DNA of 43,887 bases from Desulfobacteraceae bacterium (GTDB taxonomy: Bacteria; Desulfobacterota; Desulfobacteria; Desulfobacterales; Desulfosalsimonadaceae), in assembly GCA_014237465.1 (NCBI GenBank), contig JABZFM010000034.1, forward strand, positions 1 through 43,887, given 5' to 3'. The first letter of the stretch is position 1, and each line of letters opens with the position of its first letter. Position numbers and translations under genes: made by a program. A model generated the notes under the pieces. It saw nothing but the letters and a program-made list of their open reading frames with translations. It was not told the DNA's origin and searched no databases. Shown here piece after piece: positions 6,896 to 39,539 of the stretch.

Positions 6896-7240
6896 TTAGC
6901 CCAGCTGGATCGCTTTTTCAGGGCAGAGTTCCTGGCAGCAAAAACAGGTAATGCAGGTGTCAACATCCACTTCCGGGAAATCACCGGACATTGTCAGGGC
7001 CGACACCGGGCACTGGGTCACACAGGTACCGCACGGGTCCAGGGTTTCCACTTTTTCCACCACCGCCCGGAGCACGGACGGATGAGTGACAATGGCTTCA
7101 TCAGCGCTGGATGTTCTTAAAGCATTGGGTTTGATCAGGACTTTCTTGCCGGATAAATTAATCGGAAATATCTCAAAGGCCCGGTCAACGGCCGGGCGGA
7201 CGGTCTCATAGGTCGCCGGATGAATCAGTACGCTTGTCAT
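6896..7240 (-). pseudogene. DUF362 / 4Fe-4S ferredoxin protein with interior missing
   Basis: Residues 1-65 match the start of DUF362 proteins (GKKVLIKPNAL, then VTHPSVLRAVVE). Residues 68-114 match the C-terminal 2x[4Fe-4S] ferredoxin tail that many DUF362 proteins carry. The roughly 200 residues normally between them, the body of DUF362, are absent and the frame stays open. The join has also removed the first cysteine of cluster one (LDPCGTCVTQCP against the usual CxxCxxCxxxCP), while cluster two (CITCFCCQELCP) is complete. It is the last gene of a minus-strand run behind an amidohydrolase and a nitrilase-fold gene. Intact relatives are iron-sulfur proteins of uncertain role. It is probably non-functional, or an assembly collapse. 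Confidence 0.75.
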
Positions 7241-7297
7241 GTCCTGCCTTTATTGAAATCATATGAGCATCAGGTTTATCAATCCCAAAAAATGCGG

Positions 7298-8434
7298 CTA
7301 AAGCCACAAATTAATCATACTGCTGCCGTTGATCAGTTTCCCGGTGACTGTATTGCCGTCTTTGACAATAATCGAAGCGCCATCTGAGCCCATATCCAGA
7401 AAATCCCCCCGCAGAAACACATTAAACCCGTTTTTTGCGCCGGCGGTCTTGATCCTGCCGGCCAGACTATATTTCAGCCAGGCATCCCGGCACGTCATAT
7501 TGCCGATATCATTTAAATCCTCATCTCCTTCCGCCTTTGCCCCGAAATTATAACCGCGCCAGATGGTTTTAAATCCGAATTCCGGCGGCAAGAAAGAAGG
7601 GACAGCAATAAATTCGACATTCTGTTTCTCCAGTACATCATAGGATGTCGGATACCATGAATCCGCGCAGATGAGCACACCGGTTTTTCCAATGGGCAGA
7701 TCAAAGACGGAAATATCTTCGGCAACCCCTTTTGCCGTGAATGGCAGTTCCGTATTAATGGGATAGACCTTTCTAACAACATTCTCAAACGGCGTCCCAT
7801 CAGGCTTATAAACAACCGATACATTATAGAGCCGGCCGTCACTGATTTTAATCTTATTATCGATAATTTTCGGTTCGGACAGAACAATGGACCCGGCGAT
7901 AATGGTGACCTGGTATTTTTTGGCAAGGGAGGAAAACACATCGTGATAGATTTCCGCCATTGTTTCTGACTTCATGCGCATCAGACTGTAGATGACCCGG
8001 TCATCGACTTCCGGTGACAGAATAAGGTTTTTCACAAACGAAAATAAATTGCTCAGGGTCATGGTGACCATGGCTTTTTCCATTGTGGATTTTGTTATGA
8101 GCGACTGTTTTTCCCCGGCCAGCAGCAGCCAGGTACCAATATACTCGGGAAACAGAACCACGGTCTTTGCATGGATAAATCCATTTTCATCCGCTTCTTT
8201 TAAAAAGCCATCGATCTTGCGGTAAAAATTCTTCCGGCTCATGTAATCGTCGAGCATCATGTATGTCTGAAAACCGACCACATTCCCCCGGTCCGATCTT
8301 TCGCCGATACTCTGGATTTCCGCCAGTTTCAAATTCACGGATGCTTCAGGTGCCGATCGGCCGGAATGGCTCCAGAACAGGTAAACTCCGAGCAACAGAC
8401 AACCAACTACGAGTATATTTCTTGTGATTTTCAT
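7298..8434 (-). CDS. Membrane-anchored carbon-nitrogen hydrolase (nitrilase superfamily)
   Basis: This 378-residue protein has an N-terminal hydrophobic anchor or uncleaved signal (residues 6-21) followed by a nitrilase fold. The catalytic triad is readable as Glu97 (LFPEYIGTW), Lys222 (NVVRKVYPIN) and Cys256 (VLICADSWY). The enzyme should therefore hydrolyse an amide or nitrile outside the cytoplasmic membrane; the substrate is unknown. I chose the ATG at 8434 over one 20 codons upstream because an AAGGGA ribosome binding site lies just before it and the signal-like sequence begins there. It lies about 75 bases downstream of the amidohydrolase gene on the same strand, suggesting co-transcription and a shared amide or lactone degradation theme. 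Confidence 0.85.
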   Translation of the reverse strand: MKITRNILVVGCLLLGVYLFWSHSGRSAPEASVNLKLAEIQSIGERSDRGNVVGFQTYMMLDDYMSRKNFYRKIDGFLKEADENGFIHAKTVVLFPEYIGTWLLLAGEKQSLITKSTMEKAMVTMTLSNLFSFVKNLILSPEVDDRVIYSLMRMKSETMAEIYHDVFSSLAKKYQVTIIAGSIVLSEPKIIDNKIKISDGRLYNVSVVYKPDGTPFENVVRKVYPINTELPFTAKGVAEDISVFDLPIGKTGVLICADSWYPTSYDVLEKQNVEFIAVPSFLPPEFGFKTIWRGYNFGAKAEGDEDLNDIGNMTCRDAWLKYSLAGRIKTAGAKNGFNVFLRGDFLDMGSDGASIIVKDGNTVTGKLINGSSMINLWL

Positions 8435-8508
8435 GATTTTTCCCTTTAATTTTGTATTACAGGCCCAACGCCCGCCGGCAAATCTCCCCGGCAAATACCA
8501 CGGACCGA

Positions 8509-9423
8509 TCAGTCCCCCAACAATGAAGCGGCGTTTTCATAAAAAATGCGTTTTTCTAGGGACTTGTCGCCACGGCAGGCTTTTTTCACGATTTTGACGG
8601 CCGGCTTTCTGTTGCCGAAAGGCCAGTCCGATGCATACATCACCCGTTCCGGGCCAAACACTTTTAAAAGCTCTCTTACATGGCCGGGGGATTGAAAGGA
8701 GGTATCCACCATCACATTTTTAAAACCGCCCAAAAGGTCCATCACATGCCGATATTTATAAAGACCGGCATGGCCGGCAATAAATGTGATATTCGGGAAA
8801 CCAGCCACCAGTTCCCTGGCATATGCAATTTCACCCAGTGCGGCATTTTCTTTTTTCTGCTTCTCAGCGCCGAGGTAATATGAGGAGATACCGCAGTGAA
8901 AAAGCACCGGCAATCGGAATGGCGCAAACGCTTCCATCGCCTCAAATGTTTTTCGATTGTCCATCGGGACGCGCTGAATGATCGGGTGCAGCTTCAGACC
9001 CTTTGCCCCTTTTGAAACATCGACTTTTAAATCAACGCCTATATCATATTCTTTTGTATAATCGATCCCGGTAAACGGAATAACCCCGTCGTCTTTTGCC
9101 TGGGCGCATCTTAAATCATCAAATGTCACATACGGCGGGATGGGCATGCAGGCACTTTTCACAACACTGACCGCGTCCATGGATTGGCGCATATTTTCAA
9201 GTGTTGCCGTGGCATTTCTGGCCCTGGATGCCCGTGTAACAAGTGTGTACATCTTTTTATAAAGCCACTGGTCAACCGCGTCGGAAATTCCGTTGTGTAA
9301 TAAAAACTCGGACTGGGAAACGATATCATAAAAAATTTTTTTCCGGACGTTTCGTTTATCAATTAATTTTCCACCGTTTGGATACAGAATATCGCCCAGA
9401 TGGGTATGGATATCGATGATCAT
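8509..9423 (-). CDS. Amidohydrolase-2-type metal-dependent hydrolase
   Basis: This 304-residue TIM-barrel hydrolase belongs to the amidohydrolase_2 group. It opens with the metal-binding IHTH motif (His6, His8). It continues with LKLHP, LFHCG and AGHAG strands and ends with the YASDWPFG motif that carries the conserved Asp. Members hydrolyse or decarboxylate small cyclic or carboxylated substrates in the cytoplasm, and the exact substrate cannot be inferred. The start is supported by an AGGAG ribosome binding site about six bases upstream. It appears to be the first gene of a minus-strand unit with the nitrilase-fold gene and the collapsed DUF362 gene. A palindromic repeat lies between it and the next upstream gene. 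Confidence 0.85.
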   Translation of the reverse strand: MIIDIHTHLGDILYPNGGKLIDKRNVRKKIFYDIVSQSEFLLHNGISDAVDQWLYKKMYTLVTRASRARNATATLENMRQSMDAVSVVKSACMPIPPYVTFDDLRCAQAKDDGVIPFTGIDYTKEYDIGVDLKVDVSKGAKGLKLHPIIQRVPMDNRKTFEAMEAFAPFRLPVLFHCGISSYYLGAEKQKKENAALGEIAYARELVAGFPNITFIAGHAGLYKYRHVMDLLGGFKNVMVDTSFQSPGHVRELLKVFGPERVMYASDWPFGNRKPAVKIVKKACRGDKSLEKRIFYENAASLLGD

Positions 9424-9489
9424 GAGGTCTCCTGTGAATATAATTTTTCTAAGCCCTAAAACCGAACTCGGGTAAACCGGAAAAGTTAT

Positions 9490-9611
9490 AAGTGACCTAA
9501 AATTCGAAGTGATCTAAAGTTATGGTGAATGCCTTCGTCATTATCAATTTTAATTTTTTAAATTGATTGCGCGTTTAGCGCAGTCCGAAACTTTAGTCAC
9601 TTTAGTCACTT
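9490..9611. repeat. Palindromic intergenic repeat with iterated AAGTGA-CTAAA ends
   Basis: The left side carries two related units, AAGTGACCTAAA (9490-9501) and AAGTGATCTAAAGTT (9507-9521). The right side carries the inverted counterpart as CTTTAGTCAC followed by TTTAGTCACTT (9589-9611). A second, inner palindrome, TCAATTT/AAATTGA, lies near the centre. The whole can fold on itself and looks like a non-autonomous miniature element or REP-type repeat. It sits between two minus-strand genes. Confidence 0.6.
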
Positions 9612-9684
9612 CACACATTCTGAGTTTAAAATTTGGGTGAGCTTTTTGCTCAACTTATTAAAAAGTAGTACCCTGAATGAAAAT

Positions 9685-11031
9685 CTATTTATAATACAGC
9701 CGATCCTCCAGTCTCATAAATCCACGAATGGCAAGGGAGGCAGTTTGTGTAATCAAATCCGGCGGCAAGGGAATTATCTTTCGGCCCACAAAAAACATTT
9801 CCGTACGCGATGAATTTTGACCGGTGATCATTTCAGCGATGGTCAGGCCGTTGTAAGTGGTCAGCGAAACACCGTGTCCGAGACATCCCAAGGAAAAAAT
9901 GGCTTTTTTATCGTCTCCCAGGTATCCGATTGCCGGAGCCATATCCAGCGTCACCGAAACCGGGCCACCCCATCGATGGGTAAACCGGATCTCTTTTAAC
10001 TGGGGAAAAATTTCGATCACATGATGTTCCAGGTGGGCAAAGATCTTATCATTTAAATCAATATTCAGGTCATTACTGTAGGTAAAGGAAACATCCCCTC
10101 CGCCCATAACGATCCGGTTGTCCTTTGTCAGGCGATAATAATGAATCAAATCCCGCGCATCTTCCACGCCGGCCCGGCTTTGCCATCCGATGCTGTTAAG
10201 CTGGGCATCCGTTAACGGTTCGCTCATGACAATATAGGTAAAAACCGGCCGTTGCAAAGATTTGAGTTGTGGAAACAGGATAGAGTAGGCATTGGTAGCA
10301 AACACCAGGTACTCGGACTGCAATTCCCCGTTTTCTGTTTTCACCGTATATCCGGATGCCCCGGTTTTTGAAAAACCGGTCACCGGTGAATTTTCATAAA
10401 CGGTAACTCCCTGGGCCTCTGCCAACTCTTTCATCCCCCTGGCAAGCTTTGCCGGATTGATGATCCCGCAGCGGGGCTCAAACCAGCCGATTTTATAGAA
10501 ATCCGTATTAAATTCTTCGGCCAGCCGCGCCCGGTCCCAACGCTCAATGCCGGTCGACCCCCACTTTTCAATAATCTTAAAATCATGTTCCACCCGCCGG
10601 ACCTGCCCCTTGCTGGTTCCCACAAGAAGATATCCGCTGCGCTCATAATCACAATCAATCTGATTTTGCGTGATAAAATCATGCAGGTAATCCACTGCTT
10701 CTTCCATGTATCCGTGGGCAGCCCTTGCCTTTTCATCGTTAAACCGGAACTTGGTAATCCCTTTGGTCAGCCCGAACAGGGTCATGGAAAATCCGCCGTT
10801 GCGGCCGGAAGCCCCGTAACCGCAAACATCGGATTCTATCACGCGGACATCCATGGCCGGATTCAACTGCTTAAGATGATATCCCACGGACAATCCGGTA
10901 TATCCCCCGCCGATCACCACCACATCGGCTTTGTCCTTTCCTGCCAGTTCCGGATTGGGAGTGATGGTTTTTGGTAGAGACTCCAGCCACCAGCTTTTTG
11001 ATTGGTAATCTGTCGATTGATAATCTGTCAT
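9685..11031 (-). CDS. DAO-family FAD-dependent oxidoreductase (PuuB-like)
   Basis: This 448-residue flavoprotein has an N-terminal Rossmann motif (VVVIGGGYTGL, residues about 37-47), the ASGRNGGF segment about 30 residues later, and a C-terminal region with GCLGHGVSLT before the end. This is the architecture of the D-amino-acid oxidase / gamma-glutamylputrescine oxidase group, cytoplasmic enzymes that oxidise primary or secondary amines. The start at 11031 is chosen because GGAGGT lies six bases upstream; a frame opening 24 codons earlier lacks a site. It is divergent from a BetI/TetR-type regulator with a dyad in the shared upstream region, so it is probably that regulator's target. The true substrate (polyamine, sarcosine-like or amino acid) is unknown. 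Confidence 0.85.
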   Translation of the reverse strand: MTDYQSTDYQSKSWWLESLPKTITPNPELAGKDKADVVVIGGGYTGLSVGYHLKQLNPAMDVRVIESDVCGYGASGRNGGFSMTLFGLTKGITKFRFNDEKARAAHGYMEEAVDYLHDFITQNQIDCDYERSGYLLVGTSKGQVRRVEHDFKIIEKWGSTGIERWDRARLAEEFNTDFYKIGWFEPRCGIINPAKLARGMKELAEAQGVTVYENSPVTGFSKTGASGYTVKTENGELQSEYLVFATNAYSILFPQLKSLQRPVFTYIVMSEPLTDAQLNSIGWQSRAGVEDARDLIHYYRLTKDNRIVMGGGDVSFTYSNDLNIDLNDKIFAHLEHHVIEIFPQLKEIRFTHRWGGPVSVTLDMAPAIGYLGDDKKAIFSLGCLGHGVSLTTYNGLTIAEMITGQNSSRTEMFFVGRKIIPLPPDLITQTASLAIRGFMRLEDRLYYK

Positions 11032-11146
11032 GGGGGCACCTCCATAGTTTTTTAATCGCGCCCATCCATCAATGGATGTTTCGCACAATTTCAGGATGGA
11101 CACTAAATAAAGTTTGACTTGACGCTATGGCCACAGTTTGATAATT

Positions 11147-11170
11147 ATTTAGTCGGTTGACTAACTAAAT
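11147..11170. promoter_or_regulatory. Likely TetR-type operator between divergent genes
   Basis: A perfect dyad TTAGTC-GGTT-GACTAA lies at 11149-11164. Overlapping it is a wider dyad, ATTTAGT (11147-11153) and ACTAAAT (11164-11170). It lies between the divergently transcribed flavoprotein and TetR-type genes, in the usual place for autoregulation and control of the neighbour. Operator status is inferred from symmetry and position. Confidence 0.6.
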
Positions 11171-11289
11171 AAAATATTAAAGCGTCTCTGTCAATATTTT
11201 TTGATATATTTCAATATTCTGCATTCTTTATGAGAAATAAAACAAAAAAATATCCGTCAGTAACCACCCGATGTGAAAGGACGGCTGTT

Positions 11290-11880
11290 ATGCCCCGCAT
11301 AAAAGATCATGAAGACAAAAAGAATCAGATACTTGAAGCATTGAATCAATGCCTTCAGGAAAAACCGTTTGACCAGACATCCATCAAGGACATTGCCAGG
11401 GCGGCCGACGTCAATCACGGACTGCTCCACTATTATTTCAAGAACAAGGAAGATATTTTAACACAATATATTAAATATGTGATTGATCACTACAAAACCC
11501 TGTTCAACGACTGGCTGACCGCCATCGAGGCTCAAAACTTCAATGAAAAAGAATTGATTGAAGAATTCTTTGATTTTATGAACTCCAGAATCACCTTAAA
11601 CAAAAAACTGTCAAAAGTCTTTATCGAGATATGGGAGATCGCCGCATATAATTCAAATATCCGATCCATTCTCCAGCAGGCCTACCGGGAATGGATTGAC
11701 ACCCTGTCTGAAATGCTGAACACGGTGACCAAAGATCCGGCAGCCGCCCGACAAGTCAGCGCTGCCACGGTTGCGTTTCTTGAAGGCATGGCGCTCTTTT
11801 CAATTATCCTAACGCCGGATACATTTGATTTTAACCAGGTGCTCACCGGGTTTCAGAAGAAAATCATCGAAAGTCTTTAA
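11290..11880 (+). CDS. TetR/AcrR-family regulator (BetI-like helix-turn-helix)
   Basis: This 196-residue repressor has an N-terminal helix-turn-helix at about residues 31-50, SIKDIARAADVNHGLLHYYF, of the kind seen in BetI and RutR. An all-helical ligand and dimerisation domain follows. The ATG at 11290 is preferred over one 20 codons upstream because AAAGGA lies eight bases before it and the shorter form matches the normal family length. It is divergent from an amine-oxidase-type flavoprotein and probably represses that gene and itself through the dyad at 11147-11170, with a catabolic substrate as the likely inducer. A 34-codon ORF follows on the same strand. Confidence 0.88.
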   Translation: MPRIKDHEDKKNQILEALNQCLQEKPFDQTSIKDIARAADVNHGLLHYYFKNKEDILTQYIKYVIDHYKTLFNDWLTAIEAQNFNEKELIEEFFDFMNSRITLNKKLSKVFIEIWEIAAYNSNIRSILQQAYREWIDTLSEMLNTVTKDPAAARQVSAATVAFLEGMALFSIILTPDTFDFNQVLTGFQKKIIESL

Positions 11881-11924
11881 CAGAATGATAACAAAAAAAG
11901 ATATAGCTGTGAAAGGTAGCTGAT

Positions 11925-12029
11925 ATGGGTAAAAAAAATCAAACCGAAAAATCGCCATTGATGCCTGTCCGGCTGAAAAAAAATACGCGAATTATCGGGC
12001 TGCTGAAAGGCAACGGCGCTAAAGAGTGA
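11925..12029 (+). CDS. Small basic 34-residue ORF
   Basis: This short frame starts MGKKNQTEKSPLMPVRL and ends GLLKGNGAKE. It is strongly basic and has no hydrophobic segment. GAAAGG lies about nine bases upstream, the reading frame uses ordinary codons, and the gene follows the TetR-type regulator by 44 bases in the same direction. It could be a genuine microprotein translated with the regulator, or a chance frame. I do not recognise it. Confidence 0.4.
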   Translation: MGKKNQTEKSPLMPVRLKKNTRIIGLLKGNGAKE

Positions 12030-12062
12030 TAAGAAAAGAAAAAAACAGGATTTGATTTGGCC

Positions 12063-12830
12063 TCAAAAAAGCCGTTGTCCATAAAGCCGGTGAGTATTTT
12101 CTGATACCGCTTCCGCCACTGCCTGCGAATTTAAATCCTTAATCCGTGCAATCATTTCCACACTCACAACTAAATTTGCCGGTTCATTCCTCCCTCCGGG
12201 ATTCGGCCCCAGAACCGGGCTGTCGGTTTCAATAAGCAGACATGAAAGGGGCAGCTGCTTCACCAGTTTCTGTTTCTGGCGCGAACGAACAATGGAGGGA
12301 GGAATTGAAAAAAAGAAACCCGCCTCGACCGCTGCCATGGCCGCACCGTATTTTCCGTCAAAAGCATGCATCTGAACCCGTTTGGCGCCCTTATCCAGTA
12401 AAAGAGATACTGCGTGCCGGCCGGCGGATCTTGAATGAACATTCAGCGGCAAATCCAGCGATAGGGACAGCGCAATAAAGCCGGAAAAAATCATTTGCTG
12501 TATTTCCTTTTCATGTGCTTCCGTTACCGCCCAATAGTCCAGTCCCACTTCACCGATGGCCGCCAGATGCCTGTGTTCTTTTTTTATCAACGCGACCATT
12601 TCTTCAGCGGCTTTTACGTCAAGCTGTGTGGGATAAAGACCGGCTGCCGGCAGAAGCTCCGGATAAATTGCAGCCAGTTTCAGATTCCGCCGGGCATCGG
12701 TGAGGTTTTCGCTGACGATAATCATTTTATCGACTCCGGCGGCCCGGGCCCGTTCAATGACTTTTCTCCGGTCAGAATCAAATACCGGATCACACAGATG
12801 GGTATGGGTGTCGATTAAATGGCCCGGCAT
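12063..12830 (-). CDS. TatD-family metal-dependent hydrolase
   Basis: This 255-residue protein has the full TatD signature set: DTHTHLCD at the N-terminus (His9 and His11 as metal ligands), GEVGLDYW near residue 93, NVHSRSAG, MHAFDG, and IETDSPVLGPNP close to the C-terminus. Members are cytoplasmic TIM-barrel nucleases of DNA repair and turnover type, although paralogues can have other substrates. An AGAGG ribosome binding site supports the start. It is convergent with the TetR regulator and small ORF and stands alone. Confidence 0.9.
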   Translation of the reverse strand: MPGHLIDTHTHLCDPVFDSDRRKVIERARAAGVDKMIIVSENLTDARRNLKLAAIYPELLPAAGLYPTQLDVKAAEEMVALIKKEHRHLAAIGEVGLDYWAVTEAHEKEIQQMIFSGFIALSLSLDLPLNVHSRSAGRHAVSLLLDKGAKRVQMHAFDGKYGAAMAAVEAGFFFSIPPSIVRSRQKQKLVKQLPLSCLLIETDSPVLGPNPGGRNEPANLVVSVEMIARIKDLNSQAVAEAVSENTHRLYGQRLF

Positions 12831-12939
12831 AAAAACCTCTTTCTGTACTTTTACCAGATCGCATCATCATTTTCCGTTTCCCAATGCAGGTGTGGAGGTT
12901 GTCAATCGGAAAATACATTTGAGTAATAATACCAATTTC

Positions 12940-12968
12940 TTGACAATAACGCATCTATTAAGTAATTT
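12940..12968 (+). promoter_or_regulatory. Sigma-70-type promoter for the DUF748 gene
   Basis: A perfect -35 TTGACA (12940-12945) lies 17 bases from TAATTT (12963-12968), giving a predicted start about 55 bases before the ATG at 13030. Confidence 0.5.
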
Positions 12969-13029
12969 CAAAAACATAAAAACCATTGCAGCAATCACCT
13001 TATCTTATACCCCAGTCAGGTCATAAATT

Positions 13030-15996: not shown

Positions 15997-16072
15997 CTGT
16001 TTCCGATTTCACATCATTTAACGGCACATTCAGGCCAATCCGGATCCCGGAACGGTAAAACCTTTTAGGACG

Positions 16073-16089
16073 CACCAGCAGAGCTGGTG
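16073..16089. terminator. Small hairpin between convergent genes
   Basis: CACCAGC (16073-16079), a three-base loop and GCTGGTG (16083-16089) form a perfect seven-base-pair stem between the stop codons of the DUF748 gene and the convergent small secreted protein. There is no proper T-run on the plus strand, so termination is only suggested by position. Confidence 0.35.
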
Positions 16090-22519: not shown

Positions 22520-22998
22520 TCACATGGTTAAAACTTTTCGGATAGATTCTGCCAGATCCTGAATTTTAACCGGTTTCATCAGGAAATCCTTTATGCCGAT
22601 GACAATGACTTTTTCTTTTGTAATGGTTTCACTAAAGCCCGTGCAGAGAATAATCGGAATATCCGGTCGAATCTTTAAGATTTCCTTGGCAAGCACTTCG
22701 CCGGTCATTTTTGGCATGGTCATATCCGTGATCACCAGATCAAAATCATATGCGACGCTATCGAAAAATACCCCTTGATGAGCAGGTATAACAACCCTGA
22801 AATAATAAAAAAAGCGCCTATTTGAGGCAGCAGGACGCCCGGTGCTGTCGATTTAACAATAAAAGCAGTGTAAAATATGACAACCGGCAGTAAGGCCAGA
22901 ACGTATAAACAAATCGTGAAAATGACTTTTACCTTTTCTTGAAGTAAAAAATCACTTTTCTCATAATTTTTTAGTAATTGATTAAAATCTGGTTTCAT
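22520..22998 (-). pseudogene. Hybrid sensor kinase with core deleted (membrane N-terminus plus receiver C-terminus)
   Basis: From 22998 the frame encodes a multi-segment membrane sensor N-terminus (MKPDFNQLLKNYEKSD, two hydrophobic hairpins, then LLIKGYFSIASH) and stops at 22732. In a second frame, continuous to 22520, lies the C-terminal half of a receiver domain: FDLVITDMTMP (phospho-acceptor Asp), LCTGFSE and LMKPVK. The PAS, HisKA and HATPase regions and the first third of the receiver are missing. The join falls near 22735-22775 and shifts frame. An intact relative would be about 700-900 residues. The ribosome binding site GCAGGT supports the start. It follows the alpha/beta hydrolase gene on the same strand. 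Confidence 0.75.
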
Positions 22999-24160: not shown

Positions 24161-24559
24161 CTAGGCCATGGAGCGGTGATTTTTCAGCCGGGCCAGCACC
24201 CATAATACCCGCCGGCAAAAATAATGAGCAGACTCCAGGTCAGCAACCCCCCTGCCCGAAAAAATGGATGAAAGAACGAAACCGTTCGCGGGCGATAGCA
24301 TGCCCATAAAAATGCCCACTTCCCTGAATCCGCCTTTTTCAAAATAATACCGGGTCAGATACGGGGCAACGGGCGCGTTTCGGTCTTCAAAGCGGCTGCC
24401 GCTGATGGTCAAAACTGTCACATCATCGTGTTCAGCTATTTCAATTTCAGAATCAGACACCAAATAACTGTTTTCATTGGCATCACTTTCCTGGTCGCCA
24501 AAGGCGGGGGTCAAAAACAAAAAAATAACCATTCCAACCGTTGCAGCGATCCTTTTCAT
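24161..24559 (-). pseudogene. Exported protein with C-terminal membrane tail, frameshifted
   Basis: The frame begins with a signal peptide (MKRIAATVGMVIFLFLTP, cleavage near AFG). It continues as an exported domain with YLTRYYFEKGGFREVGIFMG to about residue 100. From the G6 run at about 24249-24254 the annotated frame becomes unconvincing. One G fewer would give GLLTWSLLIIFAGGYYGCW, a clear membrane segment, and a stop at 24184. The natural protein is thus probably about 125 residues with a C-terminal anchor, and this copy has a one-base insertion or sequencing error. I do not recognise the family. Confidence 0.55.
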
Positions 24560-24622
24560 ACCACCTTGATATACATTCAAATTTACGAATTTCATTTTTC
24601 TATACATAGCCCGGATTTCTCA

Positions 24623-24719
24623 CAAGCCTGATTCGTTCATTTGCAAGGCATAAGGGGTGAAGCTGTAGTTGCTTTACCGCAAACCGCTTATAACACAGCA
24701 AATGGACGAATCAGGTTTG
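24623..24719. repeat. Inverted-repeat element
   Basis: Arms of 22 bases at 24623-24644 and 24698-24719 (core CCTGATTCGTTCATTTGC against its near-exact inverse) differ at two positions and enclose about 50 bases. Flanking AGCCCGGATTTCTCAC resembles the end of a common miniature element. No gene lies between here and the next element at 24930. Confidence 0.6.
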
Positions 24720-24929
24720 CCCGAAGGGTGGAAAATTTATTTGAATACTTCTTATAAATACAAAACTGTGTGTGTTTTAATGTACTTTTTACGTATAAAT
24801 TATTGTTTTAATTATATATTTTCTAAAGATAGCTCAAATAAAATTTTTCATGAGAATTGCGGGCTAGGCCGACAGAATATAGAACTATACCATGCTGTTT
24901 CCATTTTATTAAGCAATGAATTGAAAAAT

Positions 24930-25092
24930 TTAACAGGTTGTTGAAAAACGTCATGAGCACAGGCCAGACACATCAATATCAGACAAGGCAAAATTCGGCG
25001 AAATAGCGGAGGTTACATTTATAAATGAGCATTTTGAGCGTCAATTTTAACGCCGCATGGCCAAGCGTAATAGTTTTTCAACAGCCTGCTAA
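24930..25092. mobile_element. 163-base MITE with 20-base terminal inverted repeats
   Basis: The left end TTAACAGGTTGTTGAAAAAC (24930-24949) matches the inverse of the right end (25073-25092) at 18 of 20 positions. There is no coding capacity, so this is a non-autonomous element that depends on a transposase elsewhere. Its right end overlaps the last codon of the shikimate kinase gene: the stop codon TAG (25091-25089) is inside the terminal repeat. Short TTAA-like sequence at the ends may be the target. Confidence 0.8.
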
Positions 25093-27296: not shown

Positions 27297-28172
27297 ATGG
27301 GATTTAAAAAAATATACATTTTGCTTTCAATCATGATCCTTTTATTGGGGTCTATTCTCTATTCCGTTTATGATGCGGTAAAAGATAAAACCATAACAGA
27401 ATTTAATACCCAGCAAATGCTTCTGGCAAAACAGGCGGCAAAAAGCATTGAAAAATATTTCCACTATTACTTCCTTGATCTTTCCTACCTTTCTGAGATC
27501 AGCTATATCTCTTCTTTAAACAAGCAGGGTGAAGAACTGCTTGACGCTTATTATGAAAAGCATTCAAATGAAATCCGTGCGCTCACCCGCGTCAGTGAAA
27601 ATGGTCAAATCCTGTACACCGTCCCTTTTAATAAAAAAGCTATCGGCGCAGACATATCCTACCAGGAACACATCCGAACCATCATTGACACAAAAAAACC
27701 GGTGATCAGTGAAGTTTTTCAGGCAGCACAGGGCTATCAGGCAATCGCCTATCATGTACCCGTATTTAATAATGGTAAATTCAATGGGTCCCTATGCGTT
27801 CTGATCCCTTTTAACAACCTGGCAAAAGAATTCCTGAAAAACATCAAAATTGGAGAAGAGGGATATGCATGGGTGATCAGTCGAAAAGGGGTTGAATTAT
27901 ACTGTCCGGTACCCGGACATGTCGGGAAAACGGTTTTTGAAACATCCGACAGATTCCCTTCAGTTATTTCCATGGCAAAGGAAATGATAAAAGGGGAAAA
28001 AGGGATAACGACCTACACATACGATAAAATCCGCGCAAAAAATATCGAAAAAATTACAAAGCATGCGGTCTATTGCCCGATTCAATTAGGCAACACATTC
28101 TGGTCGATTGTTGTCGCAACACCTGAAAAAGAAGTCTTATCAACCATGACCGGATTCATCAAATCATCATGA
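27297..28172 (+). pseudogene. dCache sensor N-terminus of a kinase whose core is deleted
   Basis: This 291-residue frame has a membrane segment (about residues 5-25) and a dCache periplasmic domain, with SYQEHIRTIIDTKKPVIS, YHVPVFNNGKFNGSLCVLIP and GEEGYAWVISRKGVELYCP as typical landmarks. It ends at VATPEKEVLSTMTGF, exactly where the second membrane segment should begin. The last codons, read one frame over (ATT CAT CAA ATC ATC ATG AAC), encode the IHQIIMNLCTNA helix of a kinase ATP-binding domain that continues at 28169. Membrane segment two, PAS and HisKA are missing. The stop overlaps the next ATG (ATGA), so the second part could still be translated. Confidence 0.8.
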
Positions 28173-28939
28173 ACCTTTGTACAAACGCCTACTATGCCAT
28201 GCGGGAGTCAGGCGGTGTCCTGGATGTATCTCTCACCCAGGTCGAACTCAGACCAGATAACCTATTAAGAAAAGTGAATTTACCGTCCGGTTCCTACGTG
28301 AAGCTCAGAATCAGCGACACCGGCAGCGGCATAGACAATTTAACCATGGACCGAATATTTGATCCGTATTTTACCACCAAACCCAAAGGAGAAGGGACGG
28401 GTATGGGACTTGCGGTGGTACACGGCATTATCAAAAGTTATTTCGGGGATATTATTGTTCACAGTGAGATTGGAAAAGGGACCTCTTTTCAGATATATCT
28501 TCCGGTTGTTGACGATGATACAACGTCAAGCCGGATTGAGCTGAATGAACCGCTTCCCGGGGGCCATGAAAAAATTATGATCGTTGACGACGAAGCGTTA
28601 ATCGTGCAGATAAACAGAAAAACACTGGAAAATCTGGGTTACCGGATAAGTACGTATACATGCAGCGAAGAAGCCCTGGATGCTTTTCGTGCCCATCCTG
28701 AAAAATTTGACATGGTCATCACAGACATGAGCATGCCGAAAATTAATGGTATTCAACTGGCCAAAGAAATATTTTCTGTCAGACCCGATCTTCCGATAAT
28801 TATCTGTACCGGTTTCAGTGATCTGATCAACGAGGAAACAGTCGAATCCTTTGGCATCAGAAAGCTCGTCATGAAGCCGATATTAAGAAAAACCCTGGCC
28901 CTGACGGTAAGAGAAGTGCTTGACAATAACAGAAAATAA
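28169..28939 (+). pseudogene. HATPase-receiver C-terminus of the same collapsed kinase
   Basis: These 256 residues carry a nearly complete HATPase_c domain: the N-box (MNLCTN), DTGSGI, FDPYFTTK and GTGMGL. A full receiver domain follows, with the acidic MIVDDE pair, the phospho-acceptor Asp in VITDMSMP, CTGFSD and VMKPI. Without HisKA it cannot autophosphorylate in the normal way, although the receiver could still be phosphorylated by another kinase. The apparent ATG is the internal Met of the N-box helix, and translation would depend on coupling to the upstream frame. It precedes the glnN gene by about 175 bases, with a sigma-54 promoter between. Confidence 0.8.
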
Positions 28940-31289: not shown

Positions 31290-31308
31290 TTTTCTATTTC
31301 TATTTTAG

Positions 31309-31384
31309 CTTTGGGTTGCGCTGCAGCCTTCGTCGCTCAACGTACATTCGTACGCCTCACGCCTCAGACTTTGCGCGCCTTGCC
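31309..31384. repeat. Intergenic repeat with GTAC-type hairpin
   Basis: The stretch after glnN contains CGTAC-ATTC-GTACG within a GC-rich segment (CTTCGTCGCTCAACGTACA and then CGCCTCACGCCTCAGAC) unlike the surrounding AT-rich sequence. This resembles a widely dispersed bacterial intergenic repeat. Only one copy is present here. Confidence 0.4.
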
Positions 31385-31436
31385 AATTTTAATAAGAATG
31401 GTGAAACTTTTTTCTTTGCCATCTAAGAGATGATTC

Positions 31437-31471
31437 AAAGCCCGGACTGCAAAAGCAGTCCGGGCTTTTTT
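31437..31471 (+). terminator. Strong terminator of glnN
   Basis: AAAGCCCGGACTGC and GCAGTCCGGGCTTT form a perfect 14-base-pair stem with an AAAA loop, and a T6 tail follows. It is about 150 bases after the glnN stop. Confidence 0.9.
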
Positions 31472-31560
31472 GTCTGATTCTATTTTATACCATTGTTCAA
31501 AACGCCCCATTGACTTATAAATATATTATAAATATAGCGCGTCTGAAAAAAGAGAGCAGA

Positions 31561-31628
31561 GTCAAGTTGGCTCTTGCTAATATTTTAAATGGGTCAAGAG
31601 CAGACTTGGCCTTTTAATGGGTAACCTC
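31561..31628. repeat. Imperfect palindrome and dispersed motif, copy 1
   Basis: GTCAAGT-TG-GCTCTTG on the left pairs with CAAGAGC-AG-ACTTGGC on the right (31561-31610), followed by CTTTTAATGGGTAACC. Parts recur at 36013-36044 (TTTAATGGGTGATCCCCC), 41579-41650 (CAAGAGCAGCTTGGC and later AAATGGGTGACCCCC), 42982 (CCAAGAGCAGACC) and 43392 (AAATGGGTTACCCATT). It looks like a non-coding dispersed repeat family of this genome. Confidence 0.5.
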
Positions 31629-31771
31629 CTAATCAAAACCAACGGCGCTTTTTTCTTGATAGTAAATTGAAGATTATATATAATAATTAGATTAAATTAT
31701 AGGTGCTATCCTTGAAACAACAGTTTACGAAATATTCCCACAGTATTTTTTACTTATTGGAAAGGATTGAA

Positions 31772-32710: not shown

Positions 32711-32740
32711 ATAGTGTCTAAATAACAAGGGGGAAATTTA

Positions 32741-33790: not shown

Positions 33791-33845
33791 GGAACAATTC
33801 AAGAGGTGCCCCCGCTTCCCTCCATTAACGTGATGCTGACCATAG

Positions 33846-33874
33846 GGTGGATTTATAGCGGAGCGTAATCCACC
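33846..33874. repeat. GGTGGATT...AATCCACC intergenic repeat, copy 1
   Basis: An eight-base-pair dyad surrounds GCGGAGCGT. The same family appears inverted at 43480-43505. Such TAGGGTGGATT...AATCCACC repeats are known from many bacterial genomes. Confidence 0.6.
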
Positions 33875-33969
33875 AAAAGACTTCCTTTTCAGGGTGTGGG
33901 TGTGTCCAACTTTAATAATCGCCCTTCAGTTCTCCGAGCTCTGGCAACAACTTGCCAGAGCCACCCACA

Positions 33970-34125
33970 CATAAAAAATTCAAGATTAAAGACCCCGCTT
34001 ACTCGTTAGCCAATCAAAAGGAAACAAATGAATGGTTGAAAGATTATCAGTATTTTCTCTCATTATTCGGTTCAGAGGCAGGAATTAATCAGGCAGCTAC
34101 AGTAAAGATTGCAGGTGAAATATAA
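33970..34125 (+). pseudogene. C-terminal remnant of an unidentified gene
   Basis: An open frame reads KDPAYSLANQKETNEWLKDY and ends GSEAGINQAATVKIAGEI at 34125. It has natural-looking composition but no start codon or ribosome binding site, and its beginning coincides with a dispersed 19-base repeat. I do not recognise the family, and it may be chance. Confidence 0.25.
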
Positions 34126-34231
34126 ATCTCACTTTTGCTTGGGTCCATGGTTCTGAGAAGTATCTGGAGTCATAGTGTAAATTTGGCTAACAATCACGTT
34201 AACCTTTGTTTCTTATGATGGAGAGGTTGTG

Positions 34232-34843
34232 ATGAAATTCTTGGATCCAAACAAACCAATTGCAACGTGCATATCTGAGACATGTGATTATTGCACCGTT
34301 TGTAAAACCCTGCATTGTCATTTTACGCTCAGAGATTTGATATTTTTTCTTTTGATTGTCTCTCCCTCTTTTCTATTAGGAGGCGCTGGAATTTATCATA
34401 TAAGTGGATGGTCGATAATTCCATGGCTGATTCTGATAATCGGATATTTTGGTTTTGTTGAAATCCGGGTGATGTGTTCCCATTGTCCGCATTATGCTGA
34501 TAAAGGAAGCTCATTAAAATGTTGGGCAAATTACGGTTCACCCAAAATCTGGAAATATCGACCGGGTCCAATGACATTTTGGGAAAAAGCTATATTTTTT
34601 GTTGGTTTTGCACTTGTCTGGGGATACCCACTTTTTTTCCTGATTTCCGACTTTCAATTGTTTTTGCTAATTGTTTATATTCTAACAGTTGCCGGCTTTT
34701 TTATGACATTAAGAACGTTTCTTTGTTCCCAATGTATAAATTTCGCATGTCCACTGAATACGGTTAAAAATGAAGTTCGCAGAGATTTTTTTGAGCGTAA
34801 TCCCGAGGTTGCTAAAGCATGGACTATTGATATCAAACACTGA
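34232..34843 (+). CDS. Four-helix membrane protein with cysteine clusters
   Basis: This 203-residue protein has about four membrane segments and three cysteine-rich patches: CDYCTVCKTLHCHF before helix one, CSHCPHY in the middle, and CSQCINFACP near the end. The CxxC spacing suggests metal or iron-sulfur binding at the membrane surface. I cannot assign a family. The ATG at 34232 follows GAGAGG by five bases and is preferred over the GTG one codon upstream. Two further small membrane-protein genes follow on the same strand, each separated by about 100-160 bases. Confidence 0.75.
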   Translation: MKFLDPNKPIATCISETCDYCTVCKTLHCHFTLRDLIFFLLIVSPSFLLGGAGIYHISGWSIIPWLILIIGYFGFVEIRVMCSHCPHYADKGSSLKCWANYGSPKIWKYRPGPMTFWEKAIFFVGFALVWGYPLFFLISDFQLFLLIVYILTVAGFFMTLRTFLCSQCINFACPLNTVKNEVRRDFFERNPEVAKAWTIDIKH

Positions 34844-35002
34844 GAACTATGAGGCTGTCTAACAGGAAGAAAAATTCACTTCTGACCCCGAAAACTTCAT
34901 TTAATTTCATGAGCATACTTTCTGTTTGACAAAATAAGAAATATTCGATTTAAATGTTTAAGGTTTTGTCTGTATTCAGGCATTTAAAAATATATGGATG
35001 TC

Positions 35003-35437
35003 ATGAAGATAAAAAAAAACAGCATCATTCAGGCGGCGGTTTTCTATGCCTGTTCTGTTGTTATTGCAGAAGCCACTTTCGGGAACCCTAATTTTCCGAT
35101 CAATTTATGGCGTTTTGAAATTATTTTGGCCTGGCAATGGAGTGTACCGGTGCATGCTGCCGGTTTTATCTGGCTGTTTTTCTGCAACAGGCTTTTTTAT
35201 GACCAGAGCATTATGATCCCGATTTTTGTTTCAATCCTTTTTTTTATCGCATGTGAAACTGCTAACTGGTCGGTTTTTCATTTTTTTGTCTATGAACCAT
35301 ACCCGGTGGGAAAAGCATATCCCCTGGGGTCTGCCGGATCGTTCTGGTTGATCATATTTTTATATTCAGTGCTTTGCACGGTTACAAGTTTTCTTTTAAG
35401 AACAAACAAAATATTTAATAAAAACAGACCTGAATGA
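35003..35437 (+). CDS. Small multi-pass membrane protein, unknown
   Basis: This 144-residue protein has about four hydrophobic segments, with aromatic-rich loops (ILAWQWSVPVHAAGF, ETANWSVFHFFVYEPYP). I recognise no domain. An ATG three codons earlier is also possible; neither has a strong ribosome binding site. A TTGACA at about 34926 could belong to its promoter. A large hairpin follows at 35461. Confidence 0.6.
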   Translation: MKIKKNSIIQAAVFYACSVVIAEATFGNPNFPINLWRFEIILAWQWSVPVHAAGFIWLFFCNRLFYDQSIMIPIFVSILFFIACETANWSVFHFFVYEPYPVGKAYPLGSAGSFWLIIFLYSVLCTVTSFLLRTNKIFNKNRPE

Positions 35438-35460
35438 AGGTGGGGACATGGCAGAATCGG

Positions 35461-35520
35461 GTGTCAAAGCTTGAATTATGAATTAAAGTTTAAGAACCCG
35501 ACTGAATTCAACTTTGACAC
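35461..35520. repeat. 60-base hairpin with one unpaired base
   Basis: GTGTCAAAGCTTGAATT (35461-35477) pairs with AATTCAACTTTGACAC (35505-35520) over 16 base pairs, leaving one extra C on the left arm. It lies just before the high-GC DUF2784 gene. A bulged palindrome like this could be a terminator, a miniature element or a recombination-site relic. Confidence 0.55.
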
Positions 35521-35538
35521 TATATTTTAGGCGGACTG

Positions 35539-35976
35539 ATGATTGGTTCAGTGTACTACCGAATAGCTGCCGACCTATTACTCGCGGTTCACACGTCGTT
35601 CGTTCTCTTTGTGATCCTCGGCCTTGTTCTCATACTGGTTGGAGGTGTTCGAGGTTGGCCGTGGGTCCGGAACCCATGGTTCCGCCTGAGTCATTTGATA
35701 GCTATCGGTGTCGTTGTTGTTCAGGCATGGATAGGGGTGATTTGTCCCTTGACAACCCTTGAGATGGCGCTCAGGTCCCGAGCAGGGGATGCGGTCTACA
35801 GTGGCAGCTTCATCGCACAATGGATGGAGACCCTTCTTTACTATGAGGCCCCGCTATGGGCCTTTGCAATTTGCTACACGGCATTCGGCTTGCTTGTTGT
35901 GGCGAGTTGGATCACCGTTCCTCCTCGGCCGCTGGCCCGACGCGGCCAAGCCAATCGCCCTGGAGACGCTGCCTAA
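35539..35976 (+). CDS. DUF2784 membrane protein, possibly in an integron-type cassette
   Basis: This 145-residue protein has four membrane segments and the DUF2784 pattern (YRIAADLLLAVHTSFVLFVI, NPWFRLSHL, ICPLTTLEMALR). Function is unknown in this family. Its base composition is clearly more GC-rich than both neighbours, and its codon use differs (many CGG, CTC and GCC codons), which suggests transfer. TTAGGC lies seven bases before the ATG, and the stop codon is embedded in GCCTAAC, the reverse complement of GTTAGGC. This is the arrangement of an integrated gene cassette. A GGCGGAC-type ribosome binding site is weak, as is usual in cassettes. Confidence 0.8.
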   Translation: MIGSVYYRIAADLLLAVHTSFVLFVILGLVLILVGGVRGWPWVRNPWFRLSHLIAIGVVVVQAWIGVICPLTTLEMALRSRAGDAVYSGSFIAQWMETLLYYEAPLWAFAICYTAFGLLVVASWITVPPRPLARRGQANRPGDAA

Positions 35977-35997
35977 CAAGCACATGAACAACGTTAA
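35971..35997 (+). other. Truncated attC-like site after the DUF2784 gene
   Basis: GCCTAAC (35971-35977) fits the RYYYAAC R'' box and contains the gene's stop codon. A GTTAAAA sequence at 35992 could be a decayed R' box. The 15 bases between are far shorter than a functional attC, so if this is one it has lost its central stem. Confidence 0.35.
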
Positions 35998-36012
35998 AAA
36001 TTAAAAAAGATT

Positions 36013-36044
36013 GTGGAGTCGGCCCTTTAATGGGTGATCCCCCA
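36013..36044. repeat. Dispersed TTTAATGGGTGATCCCCC motif, copy 2
   Basis: This shares the AATGGGTNACCC core with 31613-31628, 41634-41650 and 43391-43406. It lies between the cassette-like gene and the convergent flavoprotein gene. Confidence 0.4.
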
Positions 36045-36064
36045 ACCTGACATTTGCAGGCAAA

Positions 36065-37240
36065 TCAGACCTTCCGGTTGAATTGCCCCATGACGCGCCA
36101 CAGGCGGTCAAAGGAGGTATGACGCCATTTTCTGTTTAACAAAAGCCGCATGACCGGCAGCAGCTTACTGTATTTGCCGCTGATATGACGGTAAATATCG
36201 CTTTTTTTAAATTCCCGGTTATACTGCTTCATCAGGCGATTATTCCATTCGTTGACCCCGTTATCGACCCCATTATCGACCAGGAACCGGGAAAGGAATT
36301 TTCCATTTTTCATGCAGGCCACGATCCCACACCCGCCGGATGCTTCCACAAGGCCGATGGTATCCCCAGTGAGAATCAGTCCGGGAATGGCGGATGCCTC
36401 GTGATGCATCCCGGCCATGGGAATAATTGACGCGCCTTCAAAGCTGACATCCGCCTTTTTCAATCTGTCGGAAAACACCGGATACGTCTCCCACAGAATT
36501 TTTAAAATTTTTAACAATTCCGCCCCTGAGGGCGCATCTCCCCTCTTTCCGGGCGGCATGGCGCCGGTGATAACCATGACCCCGGCTTCCGCATCACCGT
36601 CTCCCCGGGGGAAAATAAAAGCAATCATCGGAGGATGGGACTTGAGCTCGGGAAGGGTGCCCGGCGTGATAATGAAAAATTCCATGCCTGAAAAATCGCT
36701 TTCTATGCCGCTGCAGATCCGTTTGGCAATGGGGCTGTTGATCCTGCGGTAGTTCAATCCGCTCTTACGGCCCAGTATACTGTTATGACCATCTGCAGCA
36801 ACAATGGTTGTGCCGCGCCGGATTTTCCCGTCCCCTGTAATCACGGCGACGGCATTACCGTTTCTTTCAACCGGTGCGATCACTTCATGGTTCATCAGGA
36901 CGGTTACGCCCTCCTGTTCGGCAATCTTCTTCAGGCCTTCGGTGAGATCTTTCCAGTGGAAGATATAGGATGCGTGGTCACGTTCCAGTGAAAAAAATTC
37001 CCGGCAGCCCGGGGAATAGTAGCGCCGCAGGGCGGTACGGTTAAAGCTGATCTGATCCATAAAATCAGGGCCCAAAAGCTCTGTGATGATCGGGTCCGGC
37101 CGCATGGTTTCACCCCGGGGAAATACCCCTGTTTTGGAATATTTTTCTAAAACCAGCACATCCAGACCGGCACGCGCGCAGAAAATCGCCGTTGACAGCC
37201 CGGCCGACCCCGCACCACTGATGACAACATCATGTGTCAT
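36065..37240 (-). CDS. Geranylgeranyl-reductase-type FAD-dependent oxidoreductase
   Basis: This 391-residue flavoprotein has an N-terminal Rossmann motif (VVISGAGSAGLS, Gly9 to Gly14), the VVAADGHNS strand in the middle and GLILTGDTIGLVEASGGCGI, which is the second FAD-contact region. This is the layout of the geranylgeranyl reductase / monooxygenase-like family; members reduce or oxidise lipid or aromatic substrates. Substrate is unknown. A four-codon tandem duplication gives VDNGVDNGV near residue 325. It is the last gene of a minus-strand run after the RuBisCO-like gene, 158 bases downstream of it, so co-regulation is possible but not certain. Confidence 0.85.
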   Translation of the reverse strand: MTHDVVISGAGSAGLSTAIFCARAGLDVLVLEKYSKTGVFPRGETMRPDPIITELLGPDFMDQISFNRTALRRYYSPGCREFFSLERDHASYIFHWKDLTEGLKKIAEQEGVTVLMNHEVIAPVERNGNAVAVITGDGKIRRGTTIVAADGHNSILGRKSGLNYRRINSPIAKRICSGIESDFSGMEFFIITPGTLPELKSHPPMIAFIFPRGDGDAEAGVMVITGAMPPGKRGDAPSGAELLKILKILWETYPVFSDRLKKADVSFEGASIIPMAGMHHEASAIPGLILTGDTIGLVEASGGCGIVACMKNGKFLSRFLVDNGVDNGVNEWNNRLMKQYNREFKKSDIYRHISGKYSKLLPVMRLLLNRKWRHTSFDRLWRVMGQFNRKV

Positions 37241-37398
37241 GCCATGTTACCCCTGTTTATGGAATCCGTGTGTATTCTTTTATGTTACATTATTGTTGGT
37301 CCCGTAAAAAGTCAACTTTCAATGGAAGGACTCTTTGCGCGTCGTGTCGACTTTTTGGAACATTTTCCAATTTCTACTATTGTTTTAAAAATAAATTT

Positions 37399-38700
37399 TT
37401 ACTTAATTTCCGTAACTTTACCCCAAAGCCCAAGCGCAACTCCCAGCGCTTCATGTTCCTTTGCCGCTTCTTCTAATGAAACGCCGTTCATCGTTGCTTC
37501 AATGGCCTTTCGAAACGCTTGAGCACCGGCTTCCGGTCCCTGGGGATGGCCGTGGACACCGCCGCCGGAACCGATCAAGATATCGGTGCCAAGCTCTCTG
37601 ACAATATCCGGCACATTGGCCTGGGTGATCCCGCCCGACGCCATGGGCATGGTGGGTTTCAAATTTCCGAAAGGATACCGCAGGTTTTGTGCGGTCATCA
37701 TGAATTTTTCATGCAGATAAATGGCTTTTCCGCCTAAAGAAAATGGAATCACAATGGCGTCCGCACCGCAAAGCCGGGGGATCTTGCCTAAAATAATGTT
37801 GGATCCGATGCCCTGTTGGGGTGAAAAAAAGGCTCCGGCAAGGTCCATATGCGCCAGAATCGGGACATTTATGTCCGGATCTTCAGCCAGCGCCCGCATG
37901 GCTTCGGGACCGACAGCCAGATAATTCACCATGACACTGTTGGCACCGGCTGCCACCACTTCTTTTGCCAGATCAAACATCCTGGGCAGGCGGTCGGTGA
38001 TATTCACGGCATACAGGGTATGCTCACCGGTTTCTTCATACACCTGCCGCTCTTTCTCCATATAGGCTTTCACCCGGGAAATGGCGGAATTATATTTCAT
38101 ATTGGCGATCAGTTCGTCATCTTTAATCATGTCGCAGCCGCCTTTTGCCGCCTTATAAAACAGGTCCACCCCGACTTCCAATGGATAACCGCAGTTGGGT
38201 TTGATCATGCAGTTTAAAAGCGGCCTGCGCTTTGAGATCCCCAGCGTTTTGAAAATCCCGTCAATGCCGAATTTCGGTCCCTGATAGGTTTCAAGGATAT
38301 CTTTGGGGATTCGGAGATCCAGCAGCTTCAGGTTGGGGGCCAGGGAGATGTTGCCATAAGTTGCGGTAAGCAGCATGGGGAGCTGGTCCTCGATATTAAC
38401 CGACGGAAAGGCGATCTGAAGGATAAAGGTTCTTTCGGTAATCTCTGATGGAATCGAAAATTCATGACAGGGGGCTTCATAAACCCCGATTACCTTGGCC
38501 ACATGCTTTGCCCTTACGTCTTCGGTCTCACCGGGAACAGACGTCCAGGTGCCGGTGGTCTGTTCGATGGCCAGAAACTGGCTGATGGCAAGCATGTTGT
38601 CAAATTCTTTCGGCACACAAAAATAATACGTGGCGATCACAAACTTTTCCATATCAATACCTTCGGGCAATGCCGCGGGTAATGCGTGAAAATTAGTCAT
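37399..38700 (-). CDS. RuBisCO-like protein (form IV)
   Basis: This 433-residue protein has the RuBisCO large-subunit fold. EQTTGTWTSVPGE (residues 46-58) matches the N-domain active-site edge. The carbamylation motif is intact as GGCDMIKDDE (Lys193, Asp195, Glu196), and phosphate-binding SGG (355-357) and GGG (379-381) are present. The second Lys of KPK is Asn (IKPNCG, 167-170), and loop 6 lacks the catalytic Lys, so it should not fix CO2. Form IV enzymes enolise or isomerise keto-phosphates, for example MtnW in methionine salvage. The MtnX-like phosphatase next to it supports an MtnW-type or related role. GGGAGGA sits seven bases before the ATG at 38700. Confidence 0.92.
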   Translation of the reverse strand: MTNFHALPAALPEGIDMEKFVIATYYFCVPKEFDNMLAISQFLAIEQTTGTWTSVPGETEDVRAKHVAKVIGVYEAPCHEFSIPSEITERTFILQIAFPSVNIEDQLPMLLTATYGNISLAPNLKLLDLRIPKDILETYQGPKFGIDGIFKTLGISKRRPLLNCMIKPNCGYPLEVGVDLFYKAAKGGCDMIKDDELIANMKYNSAISRVKAYMEKERQVYEETGEHTLYAVNITDRLPRMFDLAKEVVAAGANSVMVNYLAVGPEAMRALAEDPDINVPILAHMDLAGAFFSPQQGIGSNIILGKIPRLCGADAIVIPFSLGGKAIYLHEKFMMTAQNLRYPFGNLKPTMPMASGGITQANVPDIVRELGTDILIGSGGGVHGHPQGPEAGAQAFRKAIEATMNGVSLEEAAKEHEALGVALGLWGKVTEIK

Positions 38701-38763
38701 CTTCAAATCCTCCCTGGTGGTTATAATTTTAATGTAATTTTTTTAAGTTTTAAGCTACTTTTT

Positions 38764-39420
38764 TTAAGCGTTTTGCCAAATTTTAGAAAGTGCGGTCTGC
38801 ACGTCAAAAAAATCAGACCATTGTCTGTACGGGATTTTCATATGGTCGAGAAAAAAGGCCAGGCTGTCCCTGGCAAAAACCAGAGATCCCTCCTGGGCCA
38901 TGTTGATGTCTGTTGCGCCATCGCCGATGACAATTTTTTGTTTAGCATTAAACAGGTTCAAGACATCCACCTTGGCCACCAGCTCCATATCGCCTTCAAA
39001 ATCCGATGTTACGTGCATAAATTCGCCGCTGATATCCACATCCGCCGCGAAAATTTTATGCATACGATTTACAAGACTTCCCAGTCTGGCGTCAATCATG
39101 CCTCTAAGGCCGCCGGAGACAATAACAAACGGAACGCCCTGATCATCGAGAAAATCCAGAAGACTTTCAAACCCCGGTCGAATGGGAATATTTTTCACGT
39201 ATTCCAAAATATCAAGATAGCTCGCTGACGGTATGGATTCAAGGGTTTGCCTCACTCCTTCGCGAATCGAAATTTCAAGGGCCATCATCTTATCCTTGAT
39301 GGGAGAAAACATGTCCGGCGCAAACCGTTTAAACACGGCCTCCAAAGATTCTTCAGCTGTGATGGTTCCGTCAAAATCACAGAAAACGCACCGTTGGATG
39401 GTATTGCCTTTTTCATTCAT
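38764..39420 (-). CDS. HAD-family phosphatase, MtnX-like
   Basis: This 218-residue phosphatase has HAD motif I, CDFDGTIT (Asp15 and Asp17), a motif II SGG in FVIVSGGLRG, and motif III/IV GDGATD near residue 167. It resembles MtnX, which removes phosphate from 2-hydroxy-3-keto-5-methylthiopentenyl-1-phosphate, the product of MtnW, and also other small HAD phosphatases such as phosphoserine phosphatase. Position between a RuBisCO-like gene and an FGGY kinase favours a keto-sugar-phosphate substrate. Its ATG overlaps the stop codon of the upstream FAD-dehydrogenase remnant (ATGA), a sign of tight translational coupling. AGGA lies seven bases upstream. Confidence 0.85.
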   Translation of the reverse strand: MNEKGNTIQRCVFCDFDGTITAEESLEAVFKRFAPDMFSPIKDKMMALEISIREGVRQTLESIPSASYLDILEYVKNIPIRPGFESLLDFLDDQGVPFVIVSGGLRGMIDARLGSLVNRMHKIFAADVDISGEFMHVTSDFEGDMELVAKVDVLNLFNAKQKIVIGDGATDINMAQEGSLVFARDSLAFFLDHMKIPYRQWSDFFDVQTALSKIWQNA

Positions 39421-39539
39421 ATATTTTTCCTGTCGTCGAATCTGTAGGCTAATCCGGAAGCCGCAGCGCCGGTGATTCCGCCGCCGATTATCAGAACGTC
39501 AAAAGAAGTTTGATCAAAGGTATCAAGAAAACGGTTCAT
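39417..39539 (-). pseudogene. Remnant of an FAD-dependent dehydrogenase
   Basis: This 40-residue frame reads MNRFLDTFDQTSFDVLII followed by GGGITGAAASG, the FAD-binding start of a GlpD-like or related dehydrogenase, then stops after AYRFDDRKNI. An intact enzyme would have 400-550 residues. The stop codon overlaps the phosphatase start as ATGA, the form of a native operon junction. The C-terminal end may therefore be original and the interior lost, rather than the gene simply being cut off. It sits 25 bases after the kinase stop. The intact operon in relatives probably carries a full dehydrogenase here. Confidence 0.65.

Follow-up and report, generated by a model that had tools for sequence, protein, structure and literature searches.

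The window analysed here is the whole of contig C52, 43,887 bp in length, from a Desulfobacteraceae genome assembly (5.09 Mb in 70 contigs, 99.96 complete and 0.7 contaminated). The original prediction was that four unrelated genes in this window have each kept both ends and lost the middle, and these genes were compared at the protein and DNA level with those of ten same-genus genomes. The comparison bears out three of the four, encoding a DUF362-ferredoxin, a membrane hybrid kinase and a dCache kinase, each of which has a loss of the same size relative to at least two relatives, and it does not bear out the fourth, an FAD dehydrogenase gene. A further deletion, at 24.31 kb, had not been listed, and it is the fourth deletion locus of the window. 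The features concerned, with the evidence used for each, are as follows.

6896 to 7240, minus strand: DUF362-ferredoxin remnant (alignment to relatives and domains of the intact G005 protein)
22520 to 22998, minus strand: membrane hybrid histidine kinase remnant (comparison with G005 and G009, domain map)
24161 to 24607, minus strand: fusion remnant (comparison with G009, locus L090; two-gene arrangement also in G003, locus L086)
27297 to 28939, plus strand: dCache hybrid histidine kinase remnant (comparison with G009 and G008, domain map)
39417 to 39539, minus strand: GlpD-like N-terminal fragment, a 40-aa frame (sequence matches, C-terminus comparison, Pfam)

Remnant genes and the segments they lack

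The DUF362-ferredoxin remnant retains 114 aa of an ancestral 355, as judged from alignment to its same-genus orthologues, which are 355 aa in four genomes (G005, G002, G006 and G008). Relative to all four it lacks 723 nt, in frame, and a fifth relative (G003, locus L012) again gives a loss of 723 nt. The junction lies at ~7029-7035, where VEKVETLDP is joined directly to CGTCV, and the alignment shows that the first Cys of the first ferredoxin motif is gone. The membrane hybrid kinase lacks 1669 nt, an identical figure relative to G005 (715 aa) and G009 (737 aa), with a junction at ~22738-22765. This loss shifts the reading frame and, going by the domains mapped on the G005 protein, it has removed the PAS, HisKA and HATPase domains and the start of the receiver. 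The dCache kinase remnant consists of two overlapping open frames (27297-28172 and 28169-28939) with a junction at ~28154-28158, and it lacks 1246 nt relative to both G008 (963 aa) and G009, in which the gene runs up against the end of the contig. Protein-level alignment gives 1261 nt instead, because the aligned segments overlap. The loss is again frame-shifting, and the domain map of the G008 protein places both PAS domains and HisKA within it.

The newly recognized locus is of a different kind. In the ORF at 24161-24607, residues 1-77 of one gene, of unknown function, are fused with residues 269-312 of the class III cyclase gene that follows it, with 1259 nt absent relative to G009 and a junction at ~24311-24319. 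G003 carries the same two genes, with the class III cyclase domain in the second protein, and this domain is lost in the fusion; the reference set at this locus is one clear relative and one with poor junction alignment (L086, 36/91). Since this deletion crosses a gene boundary, the pattern in the window is one of deletion generally and not strictly of interior loss from single genes. Copies of interspersed repeat families lie nearby at 24607-24866 and 24921-25092, and also at 31298-31424, with many more copies in this genome and in the same-genus genomes. They look like small mobile elements, and the stretch 24930-25092 is flanked by a 20-nt inverted repeat (90%).

Intact orthologues carrying the missing segment are found in five relatives for the DUF362-ferredoxin, in two for each of the kinases and in one clear case for the fused pair. 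A part critical to function has been lost at every locus (HisKA in both kinases, the cyclase domain and the ferredoxin Cys), and three of the four window deletions are in signalling genes. Genes between or beside the deletions, which are of hydrolase, shikimate kinase-like, NifU-like and glutamine synthetase types, align intact.

Lesions in the window and in the rest of the genome

As a control, 1.18 Mb of the same genome was compared with ~1.27 Mb of G005 and G008 together with small loci. Here 202 relative ORFs were matched over 193 kb with no gene-breaking deletion of at least 200 nt, compared to 10 detections at four loci among the 58 relative ORFs matched over 19.5 kb in the window. Counted as blocks, the deletions are in four of 21 in the window, some of which are halves of one gene, and in none of 170 in the control. 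The probability that four evenly distributed deletions would all fall in the window is 7e-5, a value that overstates the contrast, since the pattern itself led to the choice of the window, more relatives were brought to it and the control leans to conserved synteny. The survey yields a local excess in a window picked afterwards, and with no deletion in the 193-kb control a uniform rate does not account for the cluster. An initial protein-level detector had found two of the four window loci and no events in 185 control ORFs, and a second one had found three loci. In the final detector the allowed overlap was widened from 60 to 120 nt, in control and window alike, as the dCache kinase had been missed. 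A DNA-level scan of contig C69 against contig C203 of G005 gave six gaps on one side and four on the other, none of them within a single ORF. Run in the reverse direction, the control survey turned up a single in-frame loss, of 219 nt, in the relative G008 (contig C23).

The four resolved window lesions each remove ~43% or more of the gene, neither nonsense nor frameshift lesions could be resolved in the alignable window genes, and it is unusual that large deletions are the sole lesions seen. Apparent internal stops in 11 of the 185 control ORFs and the one in the glutamine synthetase-type gene of the window all fell at alignment ends, among the first 12 residues or the last 3, and were dropped, and the other window alignment with a stop (L082) begins ahead of the dCache kinase junction. 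Two of the 185 control ORFs are shortened at the N-terminus, by 33 and 80 residues, and have stops immediately before their start. The window is of ordinary composition, with a tetranucleotide distance to the mean of 0.066 compared to a median of 0.063 for 26 chunks, and a foreign origin of the contig was rejected on this basis, by a measure on which a G005 chunk scores 0.054, so that a sister species would be indistinguishable.

The genome has 64 HATPase matches compared to 91 in G005 and 84 in G008, counts that contamination of those two assemblies (5 and 3 as listed) may swell, and it has fewer despite a size similar to or above theirs. Five of the 64 are in frames of <300 aa. Interior loss was found in all three of these that were examined, which are those outside contig C50, where the other two lie: the dCache kinase, one kinase on C22 and one on C60. 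The C22 kinase lacks 140 nt relative to G010, G009 and G005 (138 relative to G003), a loss that splits a histidine kinase into two frames (2841-4230 of L236, which is G000:C22:1-10000). The C60 kinase lacks 457 nt inside and ~4 kb on its 5' side relative to G005, G009 and G003, and its remnant is at ~2400-3644 of L237 (G000:C60:26001-32000). Among the matches listed for G005 and G008 there are two frames of <300 aa (186 and 281), and among those listed in each of three genomes there is one HATPase match with an internal stop.

Age, junctions and origin of the deletions

The remnants have a dN/dS, from codon counts, of 0.09-0.32 in ten comparisons, compared to 0.095-0.16 in nine intact window genes. 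Their mean is somewhat above that of the intact genes, which could reflect mild relaxation or genes that evolve faster. No stop codons are present in the remnant stretches tested, and this together with the low dN/dS, at a dS to relatives of ~0.4-1.1, makes the losses look young.

No motif shared by the junctions, in the window or in the C22 and C60 kinases, could be seen by eye, and at no junction was a repeat longer than ~11 nt seen. Two of the four window junctions have direct repeats of at least 5 nt, each time in a single relative, G009. The edges of the hybrid kinase deletion in G009 share the exact direct repeat ATCAAA, with 10 of 11 positions matching over ATCAAARTCAT, and 6-nt sharing is reached by 0.08% of random position pairs at this locus. 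In G005 the edges share 0 nt, and an 11-nt repeat results if the G005 and G009 edges are combined. The dCache kinase edges have the direct repeat ATTCA in G009, 5-nt sharing being reached by 0.8% of random position pairs at this locus, and 1 nt in G008. The DUF362-ferredoxin edges have 0-6 nt in common, varying with the relative and the register, and those at 24.3 kb have 0 nt by a tie test and ~4 (CCAC) if G003 and G009 are read together. Deletion between short repeats, one of the causes originally put forward, fits two of the four junctions as read in G009, with the other relative having 0-1 nt at each of these. Another suggested cause, a single genome-specific excision process, does not agree with the data, since site-specific excision calls for a fixed size or a common motif and the deletions are of 723, 1246, 1259 and 1669 nt in the window, and of 140 and 457 nt elsewhere, with no motif in common. 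The interspersed repeats were likewise considered as a cause and rejected, as none is at any junction and the nearest is ~0.3 kb from the one at 24.3 kb. A common cause had been sought in the belief that decay usually takes away an end, which is an unsound starting point. For the three single-gene cases, simple geometry with hand-entered gene and spacer lengths places 58-74% of deletions of the observed size that spare both neighbours wholly inside the gene, so that an interior position by itself calls for no special cause.

The explanation that we consider likely is that recent, separate illegitimate deletions have occurred in dispensable, mostly signalling genes, which would probably represent ordinary gene decay with an unusually large share of deletions. 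Four deletions of 0.7-1.7 kb would each have taken the middle of a dispensable target in this lineage, the targets being the DUF362-ferredoxin gene, both hybrid sensor kinase genes and the pair of adjacent genes that includes a nucleotide cyclase. The route would most likely be illegitimate recombination, by slippage, strand annealing or end joining, with short direct repeats presumably aiding at some sites and other sites being nearly blunt. Interior losses would be what is observed because selection removes deletions that reach a needed neighbor. What the comparisons establish is that segments of these sizes are absent relative to the relatives, that the remnants have diverged little and that the losses are concentrated in the window compared to the control, and the molecular route, the dispensability of the genes, an origin of the deletions in this lineage and a correct assembly are inferred. 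Several findings count against this explanation. The junction repeats vary with the relative, from 0 to 6 nt at one site, the cluster does not follow from a uniform rate, and the window has no resolved nonsense or frameshift lesions, although these dominate the pseudogenes of Salmonella. In a survey of the latter, 346 Salmonella pseudogenes with a single lesion include 141 deletions of 20% or less, 131 premature stops and 17% insertions, leaving by subtraction ~4% for larger deletions (PMC2916853). The window remnants resemble the deletion-type pseudogenes that arise under bacterial deletional bias, as described in that survey, in being young, having single lesions and having intact relatives and neighbors, and they differ in that all four are large deletions where small deletions and stops dominate in Salmonella. 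Salmonella cultures are reported to undergo spontaneous deletions that reach 5 kb and have microhomology at their junctions (PMC3411829), and these are similar in size, in having no IS element at the junctions and in that certain genes are prone to loss. The verified deletions of that study used a microhomology cut-off of at least 8 bp, which is approached here by the hybrid kinase junction alone (11 nt combined, 6 nt exact). A search for literature on Desulfobacteraceae pseudogenes and histidine kinases found no paper.

The main rival to recent illegitimate deletion is an assembly artefact, in which contig ends or chimeric molecules, arising from gap closing or amplification, were falsely joined at very short overlaps and 0.7-1.7 kb was dropped each time. 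That the remnants appear undecayed, with low divergence, that large deletions are the only resolved lesions in the window, that the events cluster on one contig and that two junctions have almost no repeat would all fit such joins. We nevertheless regard an artefact as unlikely, given that the junction repeats are at most ~11 nt, which is shorter than usual assembly overlaps, and that the losses fall on signalling and accessory genes with none of the 170 control blocks affected. In addition, among the HATPase matches listed none has a frame or position suggesting an orphan hybrid-kinase middle, although pieces dropped from the assembly would stay invisible in such a search. A deletion-prone state or local process, such as a repair defect, a break-prone region or a self-targeting nuclease, would make kilobase deletions the main lesion. 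This would accommodate the two further kinases with deletions and the removal of ~43% or more of the gene by every resolved window lesion, a class into which, by subtraction, ~4% of single-lesion Salmonella pseudogenes would fall. It appears less probable still than an artefact, as the junctions have no common motif, fixed size or element, the control blocks are unaffected and the C22 loss is of just 140 nt. That the remnants still function as genes, one of them perhaps as a minimal DUF362-ferredoxin, is highly improbable, even though the DUF362 remnant is open, in frame and has a dN/dS of 0.10-0.13. Relatives with the same short forms, which would have marked them as natural genes, were looked for and none was found among the same-genus orthologues examined, the deletions in the two kinases take out HisKA and have lengths that three does not divide, and the ferredoxin motif has lost a Cys.

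If the separate deletions are real, they have left recent scars that keep both edges and from which the deletion process is directly readable, suggesting that the bacterium is losing sensory capacity through large deletions. A broader and unlikely proposal is that this lineage is going through a phase in which deletions dominate gene loss, concentrated in particular regions, and in which kilobase interior deletions, rather than stops and frameshifts, mainly switch off sensory genes and in which repeat-assisted and near-blunt junctions occur side by side. If the deletions are instead artefacts, comparisons of gene content that use this assembly would call false gene losses.

The GlpD-like fragment and its neighborhood

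The FAD dehydrogenase gene was rejected as an example of interior loss. The predicted N-terminus is indeed retained, as residues 1-28 of the fragment have 46-57% identity to GlpD-like proteins (546-581-aa frames) of the relatives and of the genome itself, and it is the retained C-terminus that lacks support, since the last 12 residues are unlike the C-termini of nine GlpD-like proteins. Among the matches listed, weak ones that reach residues 33-38 continue as an ordinary FAD N-terminus, and a Pfam search at E values up to 10 gave weak N-terminal matches alone, within residues 13-34. A degenerate DNA pattern of the tail matched three of 251 loci, all of them copies of the same stretch. In the two genomes in which the neighboring kinase is 77-80% identical, no FAD gene was found next to it over the 8.7 and 12.4 kb covered. 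The fragment may be a case of plain 3' loss.

The region around it (37399-41157) encodes in one run a RuBisCO-like protein, a phosphatase-like frame, the GlpD-like fragment and an FGGY-type kinase. Against a methionine-salvage enolase model whose cut-off is 409, the RuBisCO-like protein reaches 333.5 bits, and two relatives retain the kinase beside either the RuBisCO-like gene or the phosphatase.
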